From the NCBI RefSeq assembly GCF_020102855.1, contig NZ_JADHZD010000019.1, positions 1-64,000 on the forward strand: a stretch of DNA of 64,000 nt, written 5' to 3'. The notes under the pieces are model-generated. The model worked only from the letters and a program-made list of their open reading frames with translations, searched no databases and was not told the origin of the DNA. Position 1 is the stretch's first letter. Each line of letters begins with the position of its first letter. A program made the position numbers and the translations under genes. Source of the stretch: Nocardioides lacusdianchii. GTDB lineage: Bacteria > Actinomycetota > Actinomycetes > Propionibacteriales > Nocardioidaceae. Shown in pieces: positions 12,253 through 38,894 of the stretch.

Positions 12253-13557
12253 ATGCGTCGATCCACCGCCGGCACCACCGGCATCGCCGTCGCCGCCCTC
12301 GCCCTCACGCTCGCAGCGTGCGGCAGCGACGGCGGCGACTCCGACACCAGCAGCAGCGACGCAGGCGGCGCCTCGGGCGACCTCAGCGCTGAGCTGACCT
12401 GGTGGGACACCTCGGACGCCACCAATGAGGCGCCCGCCTACGACGAGCTGATCAAGAAGTTCAACGAGGAGTACCCCGACGTCACGATCAACCACGAGAC
12501 CGTGCCGTTCGACCAGACGCAGAACAAGTTCAAGACGGCGGCCGAGTCCGGCTCCGGGGCGCCGGACATCCTGCGGGCGGAGGTCGCCTGGACCCCGGAG
12601 TTCGCCTCGCTCGGCTACCTCTACGCCCTCGACGGCACCGCCGCGCTGGAGAACAACTTCCTGGAGACGCCGCTCTCGAGCAACGTCTACGAGGACAAGA
12701 CCTACGGCGTCCCGCAGGTCACCGACACCCTCGGCCTGATGTACAACAAGGCCCTCTTCGAGAAGGCCGGCCTCGACCCCGAAGCCCCGCCGACCACGTG
12801 GGACGAGGTCCGCGAGGCGGCCAAGACCCTCAAGAGCGAGGCGGGGGTCGACGGCATCTACCTCAACTCCGGCGGCTACTTCCTCCTGCCGTTCCTCTAC
12901 GGCGAGGGCGCCGACCTCGTCGACAGCGAGGCGCAGGAGATCACCGTCAACAGCCCCGAGGCCGCAGCCGGCATCGACGTCGCTGCCAGCATGGTCGAGG
13001 ACGGCACGGCCGTGAAGCCCACGGCCAACGACCCCTACGGCACGATGATGACCCTGTTCAAGGAGCAGAAGGTCGCGATGATCATCAACGGCCCGTGGGA
13101 GGTCGCCGGCATCAGCGACGACCCGAACTTCGGTGGCATCGAGAACCTCGGTGTCGCGCCCGTCCCCGCCGGCAGCGCCGGCCAGGGCGCCCCGGTGGGC
13201 GGCCACAACTACGTCGTCTACTCCGGCATGGACGACGAGAAGGCCGAGGCCGCCGCGGCCTTCATCGCCTTCATGAGCTCCGCCGAGTCCGAGGCCTTCA
13301 TCGCCGACGAGCTCGGCCTGCTGCCCGGCAACGCCGACTCCTACGACATGGTGACCAACGAGCGGGTGGCCCTGTGGGCCGACGCGATGGAGGTCGCGCA
13401 GCCGCGTCCGTGGATCCCCGAGGGCGGCCAGTTCTTCGCCGCGCTCGACACGATGGCGACCGAGGTGCTCATCCAGGGCAAGCCCGCCCAGGGCGCGCTG
13501 GACAAGGCCGCCGACACCTACAAGAGCGACGTCGTCCCGGACTACTCGCTCCAGTGA
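12253..13557 (+). CDS. Sugar ABC transporter substrate-binding lipoprotein
   Basis: A 434-residue extracytoplasmic solute-binding protein of the carbohydrate (MalE-like, family 1) type. The signal sequence ends in the lipobox LAAC (cysteine about position 23) followed by an Asp/Ser/Gly-rich linker. The mature domain starts LTWWDTSDATNEAPAYDEL and contains typical landmarks such as FKTAAESGSGAPDI, YGVPQVTDTLGLMYNKALF and NGPWEVAGI. It delivers an oligosaccharide or related sugar to the two permeases encoded downstream. No glycosidase is in the cluster, so the sugar cannot be deduced. A very strong GC hairpin follows the gene and probably keeps binding-protein mRNA in excess over permease mRNA. 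Confidence 0.92.
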   Translation: MRRSTAGTTGIAVAALALTLAACGSDGGDSDTSSSDAGGASGDLSAELTWWDTSDATNEAPAYDELIKKFNEEYPDVTINHETVPFDQTQNKFKTAAESGSGAPDILRAEVAWTPEFASLGYLYALDGTAALENNFLETPLSSNVYEDKTYGVPQVTDTLGLMYNKALFEKAGLDPEAPPTTWDEVREAAKTLKSEAGVDGIYLNSGGYFLLPFLYGEGADLVDSEAQEITVNSPEAAAGIDVAASMVEDGTAVKPTANDPYGTMMTLFKEQKVAMIINGPWEVAGISDDPNFGGIENLGVAPVPAGSAGQGAPVGGHNYVVYSGMDDEKAEAAAAFIAFMSSAESEAFIADELGLLPGNADSYDMVTNERVALWADAMEVAQPRPWIPEGGQFFAALDTMATEVLIQGKPAQGALDKAADTYKSDVVPDYSLQ

Positions 13558-13575
13558 CACCCCGCTGAGCCCGAG

Positions 13576-13606
13576 CGGCCGGCCCCGGCACCCCCGGGGC
13601 CGGCCG
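13576..13606 (+). terminator. Intergenic hairpin between binding protein and permease genes
   Basis: A perfect 13-bp stem (13576-13588 with 13594-13606, CGGCCGGCCCCGG and its complement) closes a CACCC loop. There is no T-run after it, so partial termination or mRNA 3'-end stabilisation inside the operon is likelier than complete termination. Confidence 0.6.
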
Positions 13607-13664
13607 TTCGTCCCAGCCCCCCCGGTCCCGACCCGCACCACCTCTCGACGACGGAGACAGTCAG

Positions 13665-14612
13665 TTGCGCAAGAGCTTCGACAAGCACTGGTACGCGTGG
13701 GCCATGGTGCTGCCCACCGTGGTGGTGCTCGGCGTCCTGGTCTTCTACCCCCTCGTGCAGGGGGTGTGGCAGTCGTTCACCGACCTGAACGAGTCCAACC
13801 AGCGCGAGGAGATCTGCACCAGGATCCTCGGCGGCGCGGAGACGTGCGAGCCGAACCCCGACGCCGCGAGGTTCGTCGGCCTCGACAACTACGTCGACAT
13901 CCTCACCGGCGCGCAGGGCAGCTTCTGGCTCCAGCTCACCAACACCCTCGTGTGGACACTGGCCTGCGTCACGCTGCACTACGGGATCGGCCTGGGCCTG
14001 GCCGTCATCCTCAACCGCAACTTCCGCTTCCGCGGCTTCTACCGCGTCGCGCTGATCCTGCCGTGGGCGGTGCCGTCCTTCGTCGCGGCCTTCGCCTGGC
14101 GCTTCATCTTCGACGAGCGCTTCGGCATCATCAACGGCGTGCTGCGCGCCGTCGGCATCGATCCGGTGTCGTGGTTCGAGCAGCGCTGGACCTCGCTGTT
14201 CACCGCCATCGTGGCCAACGTCTGGCTCGGCGTGCCGTTCATGATGGTCGCCCTGCTCGGCGGCCTCCAGTCGATCAACGGCGACCTCTACGAGGCGGCC
14301 GAGATCGACGGGGCCACCCCGTGGCAGCGCTTCGTCAACATCACCCTCCCGGGCCTGCGCCCGGTGTCGTCCACCGTGATCCTGCTCGGCACCATCTGGA
14401 CCTTCAACATGTTCCCGATCATCTACTTCGTCACCCGCGGGCAGCCGGCCGGCTCGACCGAGATCCTGGTGACCGGCGCCTACCGGGCGGCCTTCGAGGG
14501 CATCCGCGACTACTCGCTCGCGGCCACCTACGGCGTACTGATCCTGTCGATCCTCGTCGTCTACGCCAGCGCCTACAAGCGCATGCTGGCCAAGCAGGGA
14601 GAGGTGTTCTGA
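13665..14612 (+). CDS. Sugar ABC transporter permease (MalF-type)
   Basis: A 315-residue inner-membrane permease with about six transmembrane helices (first WAMVLPTVVVLGVLVFYPLV). The cytoplasmic EAA loop that docks the ATPase reads YEAAEIDGATPWQRFVNITLPG. A cysteine-containing insertion (CTRILGGAETCEP, about 45-60) lies in the first extracytoplasmic loop. The start appears to be a TTG at 13665, preceded by ACGGAGAC; no ATG or GTG gives a better N-terminus. Its TGA overlaps the start of the second permease (TGATG), so the two subunits are translationally coupled. Confidence 0.9.
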   Translation: MRKSFDKHWYAWAMVLPTVVVLGVLVFYPLVQGVWQSFTDLNESNQREEICTRILGGAETCEPNPDAARFVGLDNYVDILTGAQGSFWLQLTNTLVWTLACVTLHYGIGLGLAVILNRNFRFRGFYRVALILPWAVPSFVAAFAWRFIFDERFGIINGVLRAVGIDPVSWFEQRWTSLFTAIVANVWLGVPFMMVALLGGLQSINGDLYEAAEIDGATPWQRFVNITLPGLRPVSSTVILLGTIWTFNMFPIIYFVTRGQPAGSTEILVTGAYRAAFEGIRDYSLAATYGVLILSILVVYASAYKRMLAKQGEVF

Positions 14613-15523
14613 TGACCACGATGCCCCCGGCCGCCGTGGCCGCCGACCCCGTCGAGACCGTCGCCGGCACGCGTACGCCGCTCCCGCGCCGCCGACGCGA
14701 GCGCTCGGTCGCAGCCAGCATCGCGCTGCACGGCACGCTCGTCGTCGCGACCTTCATCGCGCTCTTCCCGATCCTGTGGGTCGTGCTGAGCTCGATCAAG
14801 CCCGCCAGCGAGATCCGCCGCACCGAGGTCGAGCTCTTCTCCAGCCCGACCCTCGACAACTACCGCCGGCTCCTGACCGAGACCGACTTCCCGACCTGGT
14901 TCGCCAACTCGGTGGTCGTGGCGGCCTTCACGATGGTCATCGGCATCGCGATGTCGGCGACCGCGGGCTACGCGCTGAGCCGCTTCAACTTCCCCGGCAA
15001 GCGCGGCCTGATGTGGGTCTTCCTGCTGACCCAGATGTTCCCGGTGGCGATCCTGATCGTGCCGATCTACACGATCATGGCCAACCTCGGGCTGATCGAC
15101 ACCAAGCTGTCGCTGATCATCGCCTACTGCACGGTGGCCGTGCCGTTCTGCGCGTGGATGCTGCGGGGCTACTTCGACACCATCCCCCGCGAGCTCGACG
15201 AGGCCGCCGCGCTGGACGGGCTCGGCCCCTTCAGCACCTTCTGGCGGATCATCCTGCCGCTGGCCCGCCCGGGCCTCGCGGTGACGGCGTTCTACACGTT
15301 CCTCACCGCGTGGGGTGAGGTGGCGTACGCCATCGCCTTCATGCAGGGCAGCGACCACTACACGCTCGGCGCCGGCCTCCAGCAGTTCGTCCCGCAGTTC
15401 AGCCCCCGGTGGGAGCTGCTGACCGCGGGCGCGGTGCTCATCACGGTGCCGGCCGCGATCGTGTTCTTCTTCGCCCAGCGCCACCTGGTCGCGGGGCTGA
15501 CCGCGGGCGGCACGAAGGGCTGA
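14612..15523 (+). CDS. Sugar ABC transporter permease (MalG-type)
   Basis: A 303-residue permease, partner of the preceding one. The N-terminus is a cytoplasmic Arg/Pro-rich tail (TPLPRRRRERS), then six hydrophobic segments. The EAA loop is RELDEAAALDGLGPFSTFW, with the conserved glycine. Start ATG at 14612 overlaps the previous stop. No ATPase gene follows, so the transporter probably borrows a shared MsiK-type ATPase encoded elsewhere, as is usual for actinobacterial sugar importers. It converges on pntB; both stop codons lie in an 18-bp palindrome. Confidence 0.9.
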   Translation: MTTMPPAAVAADPVETVAGTRTPLPRRRRERSVAASIALHGTLVVATFIALFPILWVVLSSIKPASEIRRTEVELFSSPTLDNYRRLLTETDFPTWFANSVVVAAFTMVIGIAMSATAGYALSRFNFPGKRGLMWVFLLTQMFPVAILIVPIYTIMANLGLIDTKLSLIIAYCTVAVPFCAWMLRGYFDTIPRELDEAAALDGLGPFSTFWRIILPLARPGLAVTAFYTFLTAWGEVAYAIAFMQGSDHYTLGAGLQQFVPQFSPRWELLTAGAVLITVPAAIVFFFAQRHLVAGLTAGGTKG

Positions 15524-32283: not shown

Positions 32284-32373
32284 GGTGGCGTGTCCGAGCG
32301 GCCGAAGGTGCAACACTCGAAATGTTGTGTGGGGTCAAACCCACCGTGGGTTCAAATCCCACCGCCACCGCCA
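32284..32373 (+). tRNA. tRNA-Ser (anticodon CGA)
   Basis: A 90-base class II tRNA with CCA encoded at the end. The acceptor stem GGTGGCG pairs with CGCCACC, with G as discriminator and CCA at 32371-32373. The anticodon stem CAACA/TGTTG encloses CTCGAAA, placing the anticodon CGA at 32318-32320, which reads UCG serine codons. A long variable arm follows and the T arm reads GTGGG-TTCAAAT-CCCAC. It is flanked downstream by a hairpin and then by an accessory block, and tRNA-Ser genes are common integration sites, but no repeat of its 3' end was found. Confidence 0.95.
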
Positions 32374-32376
32374 AGA

Positions 32377-32398
32377 GGTCCTGACGAAATTCAGGACC
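32377..32398 (+). terminator. Hairpin directly after tRNA-Ser
   Basis: GGTCCTGA and TCAGGACC form a perfect 8-bp stem around CGAAAT, starting four bases after the tRNA CCA. It is suited to end the tRNA transcript. Confidence 0.55.
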
Positions 32399-32406
32399 GT
32401 CTAGTG

Positions 32407-32445
32407 ACGAAATCCCGCCCAGGGTTCACTTGGGCGGGATTTCGT
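32407..32445. terminator. 15-bp intergenic hairpin
   Basis: Left arm 32407-32421 and right arm 32431-32445 are exact complements (ACGAAATCCCGCCCA) around a nine-base loop. With A/T pairs at the base of the stem it could terminate in either direction. Confidence 0.6.
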
Positions 32446-32565
32446 GCGTCTGTGGGGGCCTCGCGGGCTGCCCCGAGGGCGACCTATCCGACCCGATACT
32501 TCGCCGAAGTGTCGGAAGTGGACCCCTCTGCGAGTCCGCCCGATCCGACCACCGCTGGAAGCACG

Positions 32566-32598
32566 TCGAGCCTGACAGCGGGGTGCTGTCAGGCTCGA
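32566..32598 (-). terminator. Terminator hairpin after the transposase gene
   Basis: TCGAGCCTGACAGC (32566-32579) and its complement (32585-32598) enclose a five-base loop, 25 bases beyond the transposase stop on the minus strand. The 250-bp stretch 32374-32623 between the tRNA and the transposase holds this and two other hairpins but no gene that I can support. Confidence 0.6.
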
Positions 32599-32623
32599 AC
32601 GGTGGCGCTAGGTACAGACGGGG

Positions 32624-34273
32624 TCAGGCTGTCGGCCCCCCAGGTGGACCGGTCGCGGCGAGGGGATGCCCGTCGTCGTCCAGCTCGACGAAGCCACGGC
32701 TGGCGACGTCCATCGTGGTGAGCGGGTCCCGGGTGTCGCGGGTTCGACGCGCCCAGCTCAGGAGGATGCGCAGGTTGGAGGCGGCGACGGCGATGGCGAG
32801 CAGGAGGGTGGTCTTCACCAGGCCGTGCTGGCGGGTCCAGCCGCGCTGGATGCCGCCACCGTCGGCGGTCTTGAGAAGTCCGAAGGAGCGTTCGACGTCG
32901 CTGCGGCGGTTGTAGGACAGCTGCCATTCAGGGCTGCCCCAGTACTCGCGCTGGCGGAGCTTGGGTTCGACGGTGGGCTTGAGCGTGATGGTGGTCTGGG
33001 CGCAAGCCTTGGGCAGCTCGCCGGCCTCGTTGACCGGCGGGGCGACCTCGGGCACGTCGTCGTAGTCGGCGGAGAGCGGGCAGCCGCCGCACTTGAGCTT
33101 GCCGGCGCGGGAGGGGCAGGTGAAGCGCTCGTTGCCGCCCGCGGTGCGTCCGGCTCGCTCGAACCGGTAGACGCGACGCTCGGCGATGAGCCTGTTGAAC
33201 TCGTCGACCTCGGCGCGGCGCCCAGCGGCATCCAGGCGCTCTTCGCGGGTCGCGTCCTTCTTGTCCTGACCCACGGACAGTCGGTTGGGCTTCGCGATGC
33301 GGATGAGGTGGTCGGGGATGGAGGGACAGTGGGCCCACCCGTCCACCATGACGTAGCCGTCCTTGTGGGCTCGTGCGCCGTTGTCGTTCGGGTGGAGGTC
33401 GAGGACCTGGTCGATGCCCATCGCTCGGAGCTTGTCTGCCCAGCGTTCGGGGAGCTTGTAGCTGAAGCCTCGGTCGGCCAGGACCTCGACCACCGAAACG
33501 CCCTCGTCGCGCATCCGGGCGAGCCCGGAGATGGTCGCGTCGATGCCGTCGCAGTTCGCTGCGACGACGCTGATTCGTTCCATCAAGAGAGGCCGTGGGG
33601 CGCCACCGACGGGGGCGACGCCGGTGAACCCGACCATCTGGTAGCCGAAGACCTGGTTGGTCCGGTTGTGGTAGGTCTTCGTGCGGTAGCCCCACCTGGC
33701 ATCGACGTCGGCGGAGCGTCCGTAGCGGTCCTCGGGTTCGTCCGCGTCCTGGTCCTCCGACCCTGGGGTGTTGGAGTCGCGTCGGGGACGACCTTTTCCG
33801 CGTGCGGGCGAGTCGATGGCCGACTCGTCCACGGCGTAGCGCCCGGCGGCGCCGATGTGGAGCGTCGCCGAGGCAAGGAGCTGGTCGATGAGGTGCTGGA
33901 GCTTCCCGGAGCGTTCGACCCGCTCACCCAGTGGGAGGTCGGGGCGGCGGGCTTCGGTGTGCTCGTACAGGTCGGTGATGCAGTTCCACAGGTAGCGGAC
34001 CTGCCGAACCGTCAGCGGTCCGCGAGCGCCGCGAATGCCGAGGCGCCGCTGGTAGTCGGTGGCTAGCTCGCCAACAAGCGTCCTGTGCACGGCGACGAGC
34101 GTGAGGTTCTTGTCGCGGGTCGCGGTGGCGACCATGGCGGCGAGGAGGACGTCGCAGGTCAGGGCGCGCTTGCGGCCTTGCGGGGCACCGGCGAGGGCGG
34201 CTTCGAGGACGGCATGGACGTCGCTGCGGCGCACGAAGGCCAGGTAGCGCTCGAACTCCCGGTAGCCAATCAC
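32624..34273 (-). CDS. DDE-type transposase (IS1182/IS4-like fold)
   Basis: A 549-residue transposase-like protein. Candidate catalytic residues are the D in RYAVDESAID, the D in VVEVLADRGFSYK and the E in RRSDVERSFGLLK, each in a context typical of the DDE_Tnp_1 superfamily. A cysteine cluster (CPSRAGKLKCGGCP) precedes the last motif, as in IS1182 relatives. A charged insertion (RGKGRPRRDSN...DADEPEDRYG) follows the first motif. The GTG start overlaps the stop of the recombinase-like gene (GTGA), which is not a usual insertion-sequence layout. I found no clear terminal inverted repeats or target duplication, so the element's ends are undefined. Confidence 0.75.
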   Translation of the reverse strand: MIGYREFERYLAFVRRSDVHAVLEAALAGAPQGRKRALTCDVLLAAMVATATRDKNLTLVAVHRTLVGELATDYQRRLGIRGARGPLTVRQVRYLWNCITDLYEHTEARRPDLPLGERVERSGKLQHLIDQLLASATLHIGAAGRYAVDESAIDSPARGKGRPRRDSNTPGSEDQDADEPEDRYGRSADVDARWGYRTKTYHNRTNQVFGYQMVGFTGVAPVGGAPRPLLMERISVVAANCDGIDATISGLARMRDEGVSVVEVLADRGFSYKLPERWADKLRAMGIDQVLDLHPNDNGARAHKDGYVMVDGWAHCPSIPDHLIRIAKPNRLSVGQDKKDATREERLDAAGRRAEVDEFNRLIAERRVYRFERAGRTAGGNERFTCPSRAGKLKCGGCPLSADYDDVPEVAPPVNEAGELPKACAQTTITLKPTVEPKLRQREYWGSPEWQLSYNRRSDVERSFGLLKTADGGGIQRGWTRQHGLVKTTLLLAIAVAASNLRILLSWARRTRDTRDPLTTMDVASRGFVELDDDGHPLAATGPPGGPTA

Positions 34274-36030
34274 GCGGCACCGTCCGCTCCAGCAAGGGCC
34301 GAGACGATGCGTTCCACGGCGGCCTCGTCTGCCGGGGGGCAGTAGCTGATGAGCTCGGTGACGGTTCGCGCCGAGGCAAGACCCGCGACCGGGAGGAGGT
34401 CGGCGAGGGAGATGGGTGCGCAGAGCTGGGCGACGAGCCAGGTGTTGCGCAGGCGGCTCATCCGCAGCTCGAGCGACGCCGAGCCTGCCGTCTTGGCGCG
34501 ACTGGTGACGGGGCCTACGACGTTGTTGCGGTCGCGGACCTTGCCGATGACCAGCGCAGAGGGCTTCTTAGTCTTGGCGTGCAGGTCGAGGCCGCGTTGG
34601 ACCAGGGGCGCGTAGTGGGTGCGGATGGGGACGGTGCGGGCCTTGACGCCGTCTCCGGGCACCCGGACGGTAAGGATGGTCTGCTCGCCGTAGGCGACGA
34701 CGGTGGTGAAGCACTCGGGCGTGAGGGCGCGCAGGTCGGTGGCGTCGAGGCCGGCGCCGAGCCCGAGGCCGACGATGAGGCACATGTCTCGGGTGAGCGC
34801 GACTGTGGGCTGGTGCCAGGCGGCGCGGACGTACCAGTCGCATTCCTCGCGGGTGTACGGGGCAGCGACCTTGTGGTGCTCGAGCCGCGCGGGAGCTGTG
34901 GAGGGGTCGATGGCCCGCAGTGCGCGGCGCAGCAGCGACCGGGCAGAGGCCTTGGACCGGTCGGACCAGTGGCACTGGTCGAGCCACTCGTCGAGCAGTC
35001 CGGGCGCGTACAGGTCGTCGAGCGTCAACGGCTCGGCTGCGTCACGACCGTGGCGAGCGGCGACGTAGGTGAGCAACAGGGCGACGTAGGAGCAGGCGCT
35101 CTGGGCGACGCGCGGGTTGTACGGCGCCGTCGCGAAGACCAGCCCGGCGCCGAGCTCAGCGTTGCGGTTCCAGGCCTGCCGGGTGGCCTTCTGGGGCGTG
35201 AACGAAGCGACCCGGGCACGCACCTCGTCGGGGAGGTCAGTACCGGTGGGGAGCACGCGGACAATGCCAGTTCTTGGCGCCCCGGCTTGCTCGGCGCGGA
35301 CCTTTTGGGCGGCCTTTGCGGCTGCGATGCGGGCGCGCCGCGAGGTGGGCTTGGCCGGTGTGGCTGCCTGCTTGCCCGTCTGCACGGGGGACCCGGGGGT
35401 CTGGGTGGAGGACACGTTCGGCTCTCGGTTGGGTGCCTCGGTCAGCGTCCGGATGACATCTGACGGCATCACCGTGCGGGTGTTCTCGATGTGACCATTG
35501 GGAACCTGCCGTGTCAGGGCGGGAAGAAGAGGGCGCAGCCACTCCTTGATGGGCGCGGGTGCCTGGGTGCGGCGTGCCTGGAGGAGGTGAGCGGCCGGTA
35601 TCGGCTGGCTGGCGCCGGCCAGGAAGAAGGCGTCCGGGGCGCCGCGGCGGACTGGGCGCGGGGCAACCGGGTCGAGGTTTCCGGCGGTGCGAGCGAGCTT
35701 GTACAGCGTGTCGCGGTGGGTGGCTTTGGTTCGCGGGCTGGAGAAGGTGGTCCGGGTCAGATGGGCGTTGATGGTCTCGACCCGAAGGAGCTCTCGGAGC
35801 GTCGGCGCCTGGGCGGCGTCCCAGACGTCGGGGTCGGCGAGGTACCCCGCGAGGTGGGAGAGCAGGAGGCGGGCGTGGGCGATGCTGACTGGCTGCGCGC
35901 GACGGACGAGGGACTTGCTGGCAGGGCCGGCGAGTGACCAAGCTGCTTGGTCGAGCCGGGTGGGGGTGAAGTTGCGGATGTAGCCCGCGATAGCGGTCGG
36001 GGTGCCGCGGCGTGGGCGGTCGGCGGTCAT
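34270..36030 (-). CDS. Tyrosine-recombinase-like protein with degenerate active site
   Basis: A 586-residue protein whose C-terminal third recalls the catalytic domain of tyrosine recombinases. GLGLGAGLDATDLRALTP stands where recombinases have GTGLRxxEL, with Asp in place of the first catalytic Arg. RLRNTWLVAQLCAPISLADLLPVAGLASARTVTEL stands where HxLRHTxAT...LGH is expected, with the histidines missing. The N-terminal half is helical, with an Ala/Pro-rich linker about 205-245. Its stop overlaps the start of the transposase gene, so the two products are probably made together. A role in binding element ends or regulating transposition is inference; an unrelated DNA-binding protein with this fold is the alternative. 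Confidence 0.5.
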   Translation of the reverse strand: MTADRPRRGTPTAIAGYIRNFTPTRLDQAAWSLAGPASKSLVRRAQPVSIAHARLLLSHLAGYLADPDVWDAAQAPTLRELLRVETINAHLTRTTFSSPRTKATHRDTLYKLARTAGNLDPVAPRPVRRGAPDAFFLAGASQPIPAAHLLQARRTQAPAPIKEWLRPLLPALTRQVPNGHIENTRTVMPSDVIRTLTEAPNREPNVSSTQTPGSPVQTGKQAATPAKPTSRRARIAAAKAAQKVRAEQAGAPRTGIVRVLPTGTDLPDEVRARVASFTPQKATRQAWNRNAELGAGLVFATAPYNPRVAQSACSYVALLLTYVAARHGRDAAEPLTLDDLYAPGLLDEWLDQCHWSDRSKASARSLLRRALRAIDPSTAPARLEHHKVAAPYTREECDWYVRAAWHQPTVALTRDMCLIVGLGLGAGLDATDLRALTPECFTTVVAYGEQTILTVRVPGDGVKARTVPIRTHYAPLVQRGLDLHAKTKKPSALVIGKVRDRNNVVGPVTSRAKTAGSASLELRMSRLRNTWLVAQLCAPISLADLLPVAGLASARTVTELISYCPPADEAAVERIVSALAGADGAA

Positions 36031-36225
36031 GGGTGGTCCTCGTGGATGGCAGCTTGCCCGCGCGACACCCGGCCGGAGCGGGGTATCGCGGGTCTGGCGC
36101 TGTCCGGCGGAGAGCGCGGCCGCCGTGAGGGCGGGCTGTGGGTGGGAGTTGTGACGGGCGTCAGTTCCAGATGTCGTCGTCCGGGAGGCGCGTGGCTGGT
36201 GTCCTGGGCGGAAGGGTCGGTCGTC

Positions 36226-36537
36226 TCAGCAGCCGTAGAAGGCGGCTGACAGCTGGCCGGCACTGTGTGCCTCGGGGTGGGCTGGCGCCTCGTTGAAGCC
36301 CGAGTCGGGGAGGTCGTAGAGGTCGTGCCAGGCTCCGTGCCAGCCGCACTGGCAGTTGTGGCTGACCTCGATGAGGCCGCTCATGCCGGTTGCCGTGGGG
36401 CCGACGCGGAGGGTGAGCGACACGTTGTCGTTGATGCTGTGAGCGGTGGGCGCCTGCGTGACGATGCCGGCGATGACGGTGCGGAGGGTGAGGCCGCATT
36501 CGGGGCAGGTGGGTCGGATGGCGCTGTTCGGGGTCAT
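36226..36537 (-). CDS. Small zinc-ribbon-like protein (103 aa)
   Basis: A 103-residue protein with two Cys pairs spaced like a zinc ribbon: CPECG (about 10-14) and CQCGWHG (about 63-69), plus a C-terminal FYGC. I do not recognise a family. It starts at ATG 36537, with GGAGACA just upstream. It lies upstream of and in the same direction as the recombinase-like and transposase genes, 195 bp before the former; that gap holds no other convincing gene. It may belong to the same mobile unit or be cargo. Confidence 0.55.
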   Translation of the reverse strand: MTPNSAIRPTCPECGLTLRTVIAGIVTQAPTAHSINDNVSLTLRVGPTATGMSGLIEVSHNCQCGWHGAWHDLYDLPDSGFNEAPAHPEAHSAGQLSAAFYGC

Positions 36538-36664
36538 GGGTGTCTCCGGTTTCGGTCGGTGGCCCGTCCTTCGTTGGGCCGTGCGCCGTCCTTGGTGCTC
36601 GCCGCCGTGAGCGGGTTGATCGGTTTTCCGAACACTGGGCGCCGGCTCGTGGCACCGTGTCCTT

Positions 36665-37201
36665 GTGGTGAAGAGCTACCCCGATGACGTCGTTGGCTGG
36701 CCGGCACCGCGAGGCGGCAAGGACGAGTCCGGGTCCTGGCTCTATGCCCTACCGGACAGGCCTGCCGAGGACTGCGAGGGAAGCGTCGAGGTGTCGGCAG
36801 TGGCGAACTACCAGGCGCTCGCCAGCGAGCTCGAGCGGCTGCGGGCAACCAGGGGTTGGTCGTTGCGGGATCTCGCGCGCGAGGCAGGGGTGTCACTCAG
36901 CGTTGCCGCCGGCGCCCTGTCCGGGTCGGGCTGGCCCCGCTGGACGACGCTGGAAGCCTGCGCCTCAGCGCTTGGGTACGTACTCTCCGTTGCCGGCAGC
37001 AAGGGTGGTGTTGTATCGGCGCTGCTGGAGCTGCTGTACGGCGAGCCCAAGCTCGCTGTTTCACCGATCGCCGCCGAGGTCGTTGTTCGGCCGAACACTC
37101 TCTACGACCTACGAAAACTCGGCAGGACTCCGTCATCCTCGACTGTGTTTGCCTTGGTGGCGTCGCTGGCGAGCGAGGTCCAGCTGGTTCCTCAGACGTG
37201 A
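36665..37201 (+). CDS. Regulator with two helix-turn-helix segments
   Basis: A 178-residue protein. Residues about 52-92 form an XRE-type HTH (SLRDLAREAGVSLSVAAGALSG, then WTTLEACASALGY). A second HTH-like stretch occurs at about 132-165 (SPIAAEVVVRPNTLYDLRKLGRTPSSSTVFAL). Two tandem HTH segments in one short protein are unusual. The start is GTG 36665 (or GTG 36668, the next codon). It is divergent from the zinc-ribbon gene and followed after about 110 bp by the anti-sigma-like/sigma pair, which it may regulate. Confidence 0.65.
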   Translation: MVKSYPDDVVGWPAPRGGKDESGSWLYALPDRPAEDCEGSVEVSAVANYQALASELERLRATRGWSLRDLAREAGVSLSVAAGALSGSGWPRWTTLEACASALGYVLSVAGSKGGVVSALLELLYGEPKLAVSPIAAEVVVRPNTLYDLRKLGRTPSSSTVFALVASLASEVQLVPQT

Positions 37202-37309
37202 CGAGTCCCGCGCCACCTTCGTGGAAGGTCATCGTTGATCAAGGACAACGGCGTGGCCCCGGATTCGTCTGTGTCAGTGACAGCATCCGAACGAAACACT
37301 GGAGCAGCG

Positions 37310-38152
37310 ATGGACCTCATGGACCGCTTTGAGCAGGCCACGTCCGGCGGGCCGGCGCATCGACCCCTCGAGGACCGGCTCGTTGCCGGCCGCCGTGCGC
37401 AGGCACGACGGCGGATCACCCGCACCGTCAGCGCGGTGGCTGCAACGACTGCTGTCGTAGGCGTCGCATGGGCGCTCCAACCCGGCGCCGATCCGTCCTC
37501 CGGCGACGGCATCGTTGCTTCCGACGCGAGCGCGACCCCAGACCCAGTCGTGAATAGCGACCTGAGCGACGGTGTCGTGCCACCCCCGCCCACCGTGCTG
37601 TTCGGGTACGACCTGAACACCGCAAGGCTGGAAATCGCCCCCGGCGTCACCGTCGTGCGCCAGGTCGACGACCCGGTTCCGAACGACGCCGTGACCTCGG
37701 CCGCTGCGGTGGTGACCTACGAGGGCGAGCGGAAGTGGGTGATGGCCGCCGTCGTGCGAGGCCAGTCCGGATGGGCCTCCGACCTGGTCGCCACATCAGG
37801 GCGCTCGTTCGAACAGTGGGTGCGCGAGCTCACCGTGCTCAACACGAGAGGAATGTTCAGCAACGGCCCGTATGAACCCGGCTGGGTGACTCTCGACGCC
37901 GCAGGCATGCTCACCGCCAACGACGGCGTGACCATTGTCGAACAATCGAGCCCGGCCCGCATCGACCAGGCACCCGCCAACGCTCCCAGTGCGGCCGGCA
38001 CCATCGAAGTCGACGGAGCCCGGCTGTGCGTCGTGGCACGCAAGCTCCCCGGCGAGGACGCCGACATCACCTACCTTGCGGAGACCGAGCACCGCGGCTG
38101 TGGAGACGCCGTCCCCGGCATCGACTACCCGGGCGCCCCGGACGCCTCATGA
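37310..38152 (+). CDS. Anti-sigma-like single-pass membrane protein
   Basis: A 280-residue protein starting at ATG 37310 (MDLMDRFEQATSGG), with GGAG just upstream; an upstream in-frame GTG gives 305 residues without a better site. A short basic cytoplasmic part (RRAQARRRITR) precedes one membrane segment (TVSAVAATTAVVGVAWAL, about 40-58). A Ser/Asp/Pro-rich linker and an extracytoplasmic beta-rich domain ending CGDAVPGIDYPG follow. It overlaps the sigma factor gene by four bases. Position, topology and coupling suggest it controls that sigma factor, but the cytoplasmic part is shorter than a classical ZAS anti-sigma domain, so this is inference. Confidence 0.6.
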   Translation: MDLMDRFEQATSGGPAHRPLEDRLVAGRRAQARRRITRTVSAVAATTAVVGVAWALQPGADPSSGDGIVASDASATPDPVVNSDLSDGVVPPPPTVLFGYDLNTARLEIAPGVTVVRQVDDPVPNDAVTSAAAVVTYEGERKWVMAAVVRGQSGWASDLVATSGRSFEQWVRELTVLNTRGMFSNGPYEPGWVTLDAAGMLTANDGVTIVEQSSPARIDQAPANAPSAAGTIEVDGARLCVVARKLPGEDADITYLAETEHRGCGDAVPGIDYPGAPDAS

Positions 38153-38712
38153 AGCGTGCTGAACACGAGGCCTCCTACTCTGCGTTCGTCGTCTCACGAC
38201 AAGACCACCTCCGGCGCATCGCGTACGCGCTGTGCGGCAGTTGGCACGACGCCGACGACCTCCTGCAGGTCGCATTGACGAAGCTGTACACCGCCTGGCC
38301 CCGTGTCGCCGACGGGAATCCCGAGGCGTACGTTCGTAGCATCCTGATGCGCGCCAACATCGACGCCTACCGTCTGCGCGGCCGCCGAGTCCGCACCGCT
38401 CGCCTCGACGCAGCCGGCGATCCAGCTGCCGCCACGGGGCTGCCGGTCGATGAACGCGACGCACTCGTCCAAGGCGTTCAGCGACTTCCCGAGATGCAAC
38501 GCAAGGTCGTCGTCCTCCGCCACTGGCTCGGCCTCGACGTCCACGAGACCGCGCGTGAGCTCGGCATCTCCGAAGGTACCGTGAAGAGCCACTCATCCCG
38601 AGGCCTAGCAGCGCTCCGCCGCCTGCTCGAACCTGACTGTGACGAGGGCCGGCCAGCTGGCCCTGCACGCGCCGATCGTGAACGCGCTGGAGTGACTCAC
38701 CCCTCCTCATGA
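38149..38712 (+). CDS. SigE-family ECF RNA polymerase sigma factor
   Basis: A 187-residue extracytoplasmic-function sigma factor of the actinobacterial SigE group. Region 2 reads HLRRIAYALCGSWHDADDLLQVALTKLYTAWPRV (about 20-53), and region 4 has the HTH ETARELGISEGTVKSHSSRGLAAL (about 133-156), preceded by LPEMQRKVVVLRHWLGL. It directs RNA polymerase to a small regulon, probably in response to an envelope signal sensed by the upstream partner. ATG 38149 overlaps the stop of that gene, giving coupled synthesis. After the stop there are about 280 bp without a gene. Confidence 0.9.
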   Translation: MKRAEHEASYSAFVVSRQDHLRRIAYALCGSWHDADDLLQVALTKLYTAWPRVADGNPEAYVRSILMRANIDAYRLRGRRVRTARLDAAGDPAAATGLPVDERDALVQGVQRLPEMQRKVVVLRHWLGLDVHETARELGISEGTVKSHSSRGLAALRRLLEPDCDEGRPAGPARADRERAGVTHPSS

Positions 38713-38894
38713 GGACCGCAGGGTCCACAGGTCCGACCCGGGCCCATCACAAGCACGTCGTTCTGCCGGTAGCCCATTGGCCTTGCAGAAGTGTTGGTCA
38801 CGGCGGCGAAATCGTGCTGGGCGGGGTCCAACGAGCACGCCTCGGGATCACTTTGACCTGCCGTTTCCTCTTTTCGTCACCACCTCGCCAACTG

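Follow-up and report, generated by a model that had tools for sequence, protein, structure and literature searches.

Why should the gene of a DDE transposase overlap that of a tyrosine-recombinase-like protein without the expected catalytic residues, beside a tRNA gene? The question is raised by a 64,000-nucleotide stretch of Nocardioides lacusdianchii DNA (RefSeq assembly GCF_020102855.1, contig NZ_JADHZD010000019.1, positions 1 to 64,000; hereafter, the window), in which the two open reading frames (ORFs) were confirmed to overlap by GTGA at 34270-34273. The transposase is called d here and its partner u. Made from the sequence alone, the initial annotation supposed that the partner recognises ends or targets or regulates the transposase of an undescribed mobile element class. 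Here, we report a family of elements carrying this pair, which are likely, in our judgement, to be autonomous site-specific DDE transposons whose dead tyrosine recombinase selects the target. By sequence, the analysis documents element ends, target duplications, two empty sites, targeting, co-conservation, an intact DDE triad, and a degenerate u, and site-specific transposition at the 3' ends of tRNA and transfer-messenger RNA (tmRNA) genes is strongly supported.

The genes lie where they had first been placed (32566-36537), whereas the mobile unit is larger and spans 32375-38886 (Table 1). In a relative (G007; genomes, contigs, and loci are cited by G, C, and L numbers), this interval is absent and the window flanks are contiguous (93% and 92% identical). 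The insertion point is the discriminator base of tRNA-Ser(cga), and the terminal inverted repeats are imperfect (13/16 bases match). A second, independent empty site came from G021, which lacks the 5,939-bp element that occupies a tRNA-Leu in G005 (flank identities, 87% and 80%). The ends and target duplications that the initial annotation proposed to look for were also found: a scan requiring inverted ends plus a 5-bp duplication gave both borders in 14 elements of 1.95-18.4 kb (window, L015, L018, L020, L038, L094, L097, L099, L107, L112, L120, L121, L125, and L130). Right ends of most other loci were not found by the border scan; at L019 (G077), u, d, and a tRNA-Ser end are present, and no right end was found.

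Scans for close relatives of u were nearly empty (one record among genome contigs, a 100% identical u in an uncultured Nocardioides isolate; no match among plasmids), so profiles built from seven diverged pairs were needed. Genome searches covered Actinomycetota, where homologous u-d pairs were found, mostly 16-41% identical. Among 145 relatives, u matched 6 genomes and d matched 7 (the window's own counted), the 6 all within the 7; in the seventh (G077), a u-like gene upstream of d matches Pfam Phage_integrase at 23.6 bits (cut-off, 27.1) and also the u profile, but that profile included G077. The seven-sequence d profile matched 27 of the 394 genomes searched in the class and 15 of the 296 in the phylum (the window's own included, three others shared). 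We examined 45 loci at length (window, L015-L020, and L093-L130), which are not all independent: L102 and L103 are near-identical, L016 and L017 are similar, L095 and L100 share one contig, and L121 and L130 share another. L038 was found via the empty-site alignment, not by protein search. Outside the 45 stand six weak or contig-edge matches (G400, G475, G285 C146, G270 C25, G738 C16, and G635 C146), dropped before counting; four of the six had short loci, two with tRNAs at most 0.6 kb from the match (L069, Leu; L089, Arg and His) and two with none (L068 and L091). The partner was detected in 34 of the 45 loci and adjoins d in all 28 that have a full-length transposase, 21 of them with a 4-bp start/stop overlap; u and d distances correlate (r = 0.81, 26 loci; 0/2000 permutations as high). 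The pairing is therefore not incidental, as might have been feared had the two genes parted elsewhere.

In 36 of the 45 loci, the d stop codon lies 60-295 bp from a facing tRNA or tmRNA 3' end (Leu, 11; Ser, 8; Ala, 5; Gly, 4; tmRNA, 3; Met, 2; Tyr, 2; Val, 1). tRNA ends are general insertion hot spots, and transposases might have gathered beside them by chance, with no targeting of their own; we find this barely credible, given the single gene order, the 36 facing ends, the co-divergence of u and d, and the fixed spacing described below. In a looser control, 2 of 30 loci found with an IS1182 profile, most of them weak or partial (5/96 genomes over the cut-off), had any tRNA within flanks of about 1.5 kb, a broader count than that of facing 3' ends at 60-295 bp. 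Neither d nor u was matched at one control locus (L155), where a tRNA-Arg overlaps a reading frame that weakly matches IS1182.

Among the nine loci without a facing 3' end, four (L118, L123, L016, and L017) have a tmRNA farther out with other genes between, followed by end-like repeats in L118, L016, and L017 and not clearly in L123. L119 lies directly after a 3' fragment of a tRNA that runs from the CAT anticodon to CCA; neither ARAGORN nor inspection by eye found the corresponding 5' half, which suggests that the 3' part is sufficient as a target. The end at L100 follows CACGCCA with no tRNA there, and a second copy on the same contig lies at a tRNA, a position as expected from stacking of elements; at L101, the contig starts at an end sequence resembling that of L105. 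As a separate observation, the lone tRNA 3' part at L119 is possibly an att remnant of an older island.

The duplication begins 19 bp after the T-loop motif TTCRA in 13 of the 14 bordered elements and 20 bp after it in L094; its position had been free over seven offsets, so that this constancy adds to the support for the borders. The duplicated letters vary (GCCAN, ACCAN, ACACA, ACTCT, ACAGA, TCACA, TCCAA, and CCAGC), and some targets have no encoded CCA. The landmark that the targets share is the tRNA body and not the duplicated bases.

Left ends carry a direct repeat of about 8-14 bp, mostly element-specific in sequence, with a spacing of 22 or 23 bp in 25 of the 26 ends scoring at least 6; scores of at least 7 were reached by 24/41 ends and 6/205 random places. 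Folding of the stretch 25-115 bases beyond the tRNA is more stable than that of random windows (means, -42.4 versus -34.0 kcal/mol; 41 ends; Mann-Whitney p 1.8e-8), and such a fold would fit a replacement terminator. Across 21 loci, left-end similarity tracks d given u (partial r 0.23, 19/2000) and does not track u given d (partial r 0.06, 575/2000), so the ends probably belong to the transposase, and it is d that would bind them. In 4 of 12 elements (L099, L112, L120, and L125), the far flank opens, as judged by eye, with another left end, which points to stacking at one tRNA.

By itself, u has no meaningful Pfam or NCBIfam family match. A seven-sequence u profile searched against the PDB (E up to 1) had XerA 4a8e as its sole match (7e-5). 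An AlphaFold model from a 35-row alignment (predicted local distance difference test [pLDDT], 79.5; replacing a poor 7-row model, pLDDT 54) is recombinase-like over residues 255-579 and matches XerA 5hxy (best Foldseek E, 1.3e-5; VIA Z 14.8, root mean square deviation [rmsd] 15.4 over 258), Cre (Z 13.6, rmsd 6.2 over 268), XerH (Z 13.1, rmsd 5.8 over 277), and Tn1549 integrase (Z 13.1, rmsd 4.7 over 265), so the structural match to recombinases set beforehand as a test of the 586-aa protein was obtained. A Z of about 13 could by itself reflect a common helical arrangement; the assignment does not rest on Z alone, because the Foldseek rows with E up to 0.001, 36 in number, comprise only tyrosine recombinases and engineered forms of them, and the sequence profile concurs. 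The GLDATDL and SRLRNTW segments, from which the initial annotation had read the lack of expected catalytic residues, are present in u, and the complete R-H-R-H/W-Y set is absent in 35/35 rows (first Arg in 5, HxxR His in 1, second Arg in 35, LGH His/Trp in 0, and Tyr in 11), at most three of the five positions being kept, in 3 rows; the count covers these five, Lys left out, and loss is judged from sequence. On this model and these counts, u is a protein of tyrosine-recombinase fold with its catalysis lost.

The model also has a confident additional N-terminal helical domain (residues about 10-120). As a side observation, two tandem recombinase-like genes, not one, lie upstream of d in L016 (7476-9465), L017 (7673-9687), L093, L110, L118, L123, and L126. 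The additional gene of these tandem pairs may correspond to the N-terminal half of the 586-aa u. In L016 and L017, the core-binding part of the u profile is matched by a separate gene upstream (2.8e-10 and 5.6e-7).

The D, D, and E contexts noted initially in d correspond to D149, D267, and E461, invariant in 27/27 aligned relatives. Profile matches of d are weak and limited to DDE_Tnp_1, DDE_Tnp_1_6 (24.8 bits; cut-off, 25.1), and IS1182; a PDB sequence search with the d profile returned nothing at E up to 1. What d has in common with IS1182-like elements (NF033551 and PF13751) is a weak profile match across that end of the DDE domain which contains the E, and membership was rejected at 30.6 bits against the 270 required by NCBIfam NF033551; a partner gene, cargo, and a 5-bp duplication at a fixed tRNA position further set the present elements apart.

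An island integrated at a tRNA end by a tyrosine recombinase, with the DDE gene as passenger, would account for the recombinase fold of u, and tRNA 3' ends are the classic integration sites of such islands. We regard this origin as very improbable: the catalytic set is missing throughout the u rows while the DDE triad is intact throughout the d relatives, an ungapped scan of five loci gave no convincing far-side copy of the tRNA 3' end, and 5-bp duplications with inverted ends were found instead. In that scan, an att-type repeat of the tRNA 3' end was rejected as the border (window best, 14/20 bases); the best such repeat of L015 (16/20) lies inside the element, whose right end was later located elsewhere.

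Under the explanation that we favour, the transposase would bind and join the ends (inverted repeats of about 15-18 bp, with the direct repeat 22-23 bp apart inside the left end) and make 5-bp staggered insertions. Tyrosine recombinases that integrate at tRNA ends bind the T-arm/acceptor region, and u would most likely bind the T-arm/acceptor end of the tRNA or tmRNA gene in the same way and so set d on the discriminator base, which lies 19 bp beyond the point where the T-loop motif starts. With the tRNA 3' end rebuilt by the duplication and the displaced terminator possibly replaced by the left-end hairpin, an insertion would be expected to do no harm, and several rounds at a single tRNA would stack elements, which are presumably active today. 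We infer that u rather than d reads the target, because recombinases of this kind bind tRNA ends, the element ends track d and not u, and a functional analogue is known in TnsF. The further claim that d and a dead recombinase, with no AAA+ ATPase and no TniQ, insert site-specifically across Actinomycetota, and that u reads the conserved T-arm and sets the 19-bp distance, so that a swap of u would retarget the element, is one that we would as soon expect to fail as to hold.

TnsF of Tn6022 is a dead tyrosine recombinase that selects comM, and Tn6022 transposition is impaired without any of TnsA, TnsB, TnsC, TniQ, and TnsF (Faure et al. 2023, PMC10293859). Both systems have a dead recombinase-fold protein serving DDE transposition and a chromosomal target site, and the tandem core-binding domains described for TnsF (PMC10293859) have a possible parallel in the tandem helical units that the model suggests in u. 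They differ in transposase family and in target (comM there; tRNA/tmRNA ends here, tRNA-Ser in the window), and the catalytic-domain fold kept in u is reduced to a partial one in TnsF. Tn7 membership was rejected, there being no match to TnsA, TnsB, TnsC, or TniQ/TnsD in the six scanned ORFs of the window element; Cas1, PolB, and AAA+ ATPases were likewise unmatched in these ORFs. Casposons, which use Cas1 and carry PolB, also have inverted ends and target duplications, and five euryarchaeal ones overlap the last 4-7 nucleotides of a tRNA gene (PMC4046053). Some CRISPR-associated transposons (CASTs), type I-D CyCAST among them, can reach a tRNA gene with no guide RNA, as the window element would, and do so with TnsAB, TnsC, and TnsD (PMC10293859); these are unmatched in the window element. 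MrpR/YopR of phage SPbeta, whose structures 8a0a and 8bpz also match the u model, is a recombinase-fold DNA binder without recombinase activity that keeps Tyr and Lys, a phage repressor with no transposase partner (PMC10516654). We found no published description of the u-d family, preprints and subscription papers being thinly covered, and the literature search gave no dead-recombinase target selector beyond TnsF. The supposition of an undescribed class is to be qualified: the principle is known from TnsF, in a Tn7 setting. What differs here is the transposase family, the targeting of tRNA/tmRNA genes, and, for the window element, the lack of Tn7 genes.

It is also conceivable, if rather unlikely, that d itself recognises the tRNA end and that u is an end-binding accessory, a co-factor, or an MrpR-like repressor regulating transposition. 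Target type follows d as well as u, MrpR offers a dead recombinase fold acting as a repressor, and some loci have two u genes. Against this reading, left-end sequences do not track u given d, TnsF, the nearest functional analogue found, acts as a target selector, and the window, L131, and L132 each have a divergent helix-turn-helix gene that could already serve as regulator. Of the initial supposition that u recognises ends or targets, it is targets that are better supported.

Several observations weigh against site-specific transposition with u as selector. The right-end scan is noisy, its maxima at random places (6-15) equalling the scores of several elements; apart from the two cases with empty sites and those with the strongest repeats, single borders are less secure, those of L107, L112, L130, and L097 being the most doubtful. 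No near-identical genome pair showed a recent jump. The partner was not detected in 11/45 loci, in all of which the d match is partial or contig-cut, and the Tyr (11/35), first Arg (5/35), and HxxR His (1/35) are still there in some u members. No target could be assigned to L108 (a tmRNA some 8 kb off, no visible end) or L126. On the d tree, target type shows only weak inheritance (11 changes against a shuffled mean of 13.7; 28/1000 shuffles as low), and it tracks u no better than d (22 loci). Finally, all three plasmid loci examined, from nine matched plasmid records, have no tRNA beside d, and L131 has a candidate CCACC duplication, 6,542 bp apart, at a non-tRNA site; plasmid copies away from tRNAs could reflect relaxed targeting or a second pathway.

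As in the window element, a divergent regulator lies upstream of u in plasmid loci L131 and L132. L131, on the linear plasmid pSCL3 of Streptomyces clavuligerus, is an example of the u-d pair with such a regulator and no adjacent tRNA. The third gene, annotated initially as encoding a zinc-ribbon protein, shows CxxC-type motifs by eye and has no Pfam or NCBIfam match.

Table 1. Features of the window element and its target (window coordinates)
Feature	Position	Strand	Basis or remark
Whole transposon, 6,512 bp	32375..38886		Missing in G007, flanks joined there; 5-bp duplication and inverted ends
tRNA-Ser(cga), target gene, kept intact despite insertion	32284..32373	+	ARAGORN; in relatives, found both with and without the insert
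Left target-site duplication GCCAA (discriminator G + CCA + 1)	32370..32374		Empty site in G007
Left terminal inverted repeat, beginning GAGGTCCTGACGAAAT	32375..32392		
Sub-terminal direct repeat 1, TGACGAAAT	32382..32390		
Sub-terminal direct repeat 2, TGACGAAAT	32405..32413		23 bp from repeat 1
Left-end hairpin, possible replacement terminator for the tRNA	32407..32445		Sequence; fold stability of left ends above that of random windows
DDE transposase d, 549 aa; D149, D267, E461	32624..34273	-	
u, catalytically degenerate tyrosine-recombinase-like protein, 586 aa; proposed target selector	34270..36030	-	
Zinc-ribbon-like ORF, 103 aa	36226..36537	- (strand of u)	Judged by eye
Divergent helix-turn-helix regulator	36665..37201	+	
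Cargo, 305-aa protein without Pfam match	37235..38152	+	
Cargo, extracytoplasmic function (ECF)-type sigma factor; ORF, true start may be further in	38026..38712	+	Pfam Sigma70_r2/r4
Right terminal inverted repeat (reverse complement beginning GAGGTGGTGACGAAAA)	38869..38886		
Right target-site duplication GCCAA	38887..38891		

Cargo was surveyed in 20 proteins by Pfam, 10 of these also by PADLOC, none from L094 or L112. Restriction genes were found in four of the complete elements: a type IIG restriction-methylase (L097), type I M and R subunits (L121), a type III methylase and nuclease (L130), and an EcoRI-like methylase and type II nuclease with Abi_2 (L125). L120 carries a Schlafen AlbA_2 protein, L020 carries HAD, glyoxalase-like, and SnoaL-like proteins, and ECF sigma factors are cargo of the window element and L038. 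Apart from d and u, L125 has only restriction and abortive-infection genes among its called genes, so a third transposition gene is not evident there, and no Tn7-gene match was found in L125 (d, methylase, endonuclease, and Abi by Pfam; u by NCBIfam). A cargo protein of L099 (5771-9502), whose Rhs-repeat matches are weak and whose C-terminal phospholipase A2 matches are clear, resembles a polymorphic interbacterial toxin.

Three further observations concern G012 and G022, in neither of which a d homologue was found. L038 (G012, 13018-14968) is a 1,951-bp element with matching architecture and ends, carrying its sigma factor without a transposase at the same tRNA-Ser. A plsB-like neighbour gene in G012 carries two in-frame stops. 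Directly after tRNA-Leu(cag) in G022 (L167/L176) lie left-end-like repeats, GGTTTAGGTATTA and GGTTTAGGTAATA, about 23 bp apart, for which a matching right end was not found.

If u is indeed the selector, the family would provide a second, apparently much simpler, case in which a DDE transposase is targeted by a dead tyrosine recombinase, and it makes testable how such a transposase reaches one base without an ATPase. It could explain why some tRNA-end islands of Actinomycetota have no working integrase. It also gives meaning to proteins in plasmid records, where the matched genes are annotated as "hypothetical protein" or, in one record, unannotated. A two-protein, base-exact, non-disruptive inserter would be of technical interest. 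The family also carries phage defence, as four complete elements bear restriction genes.

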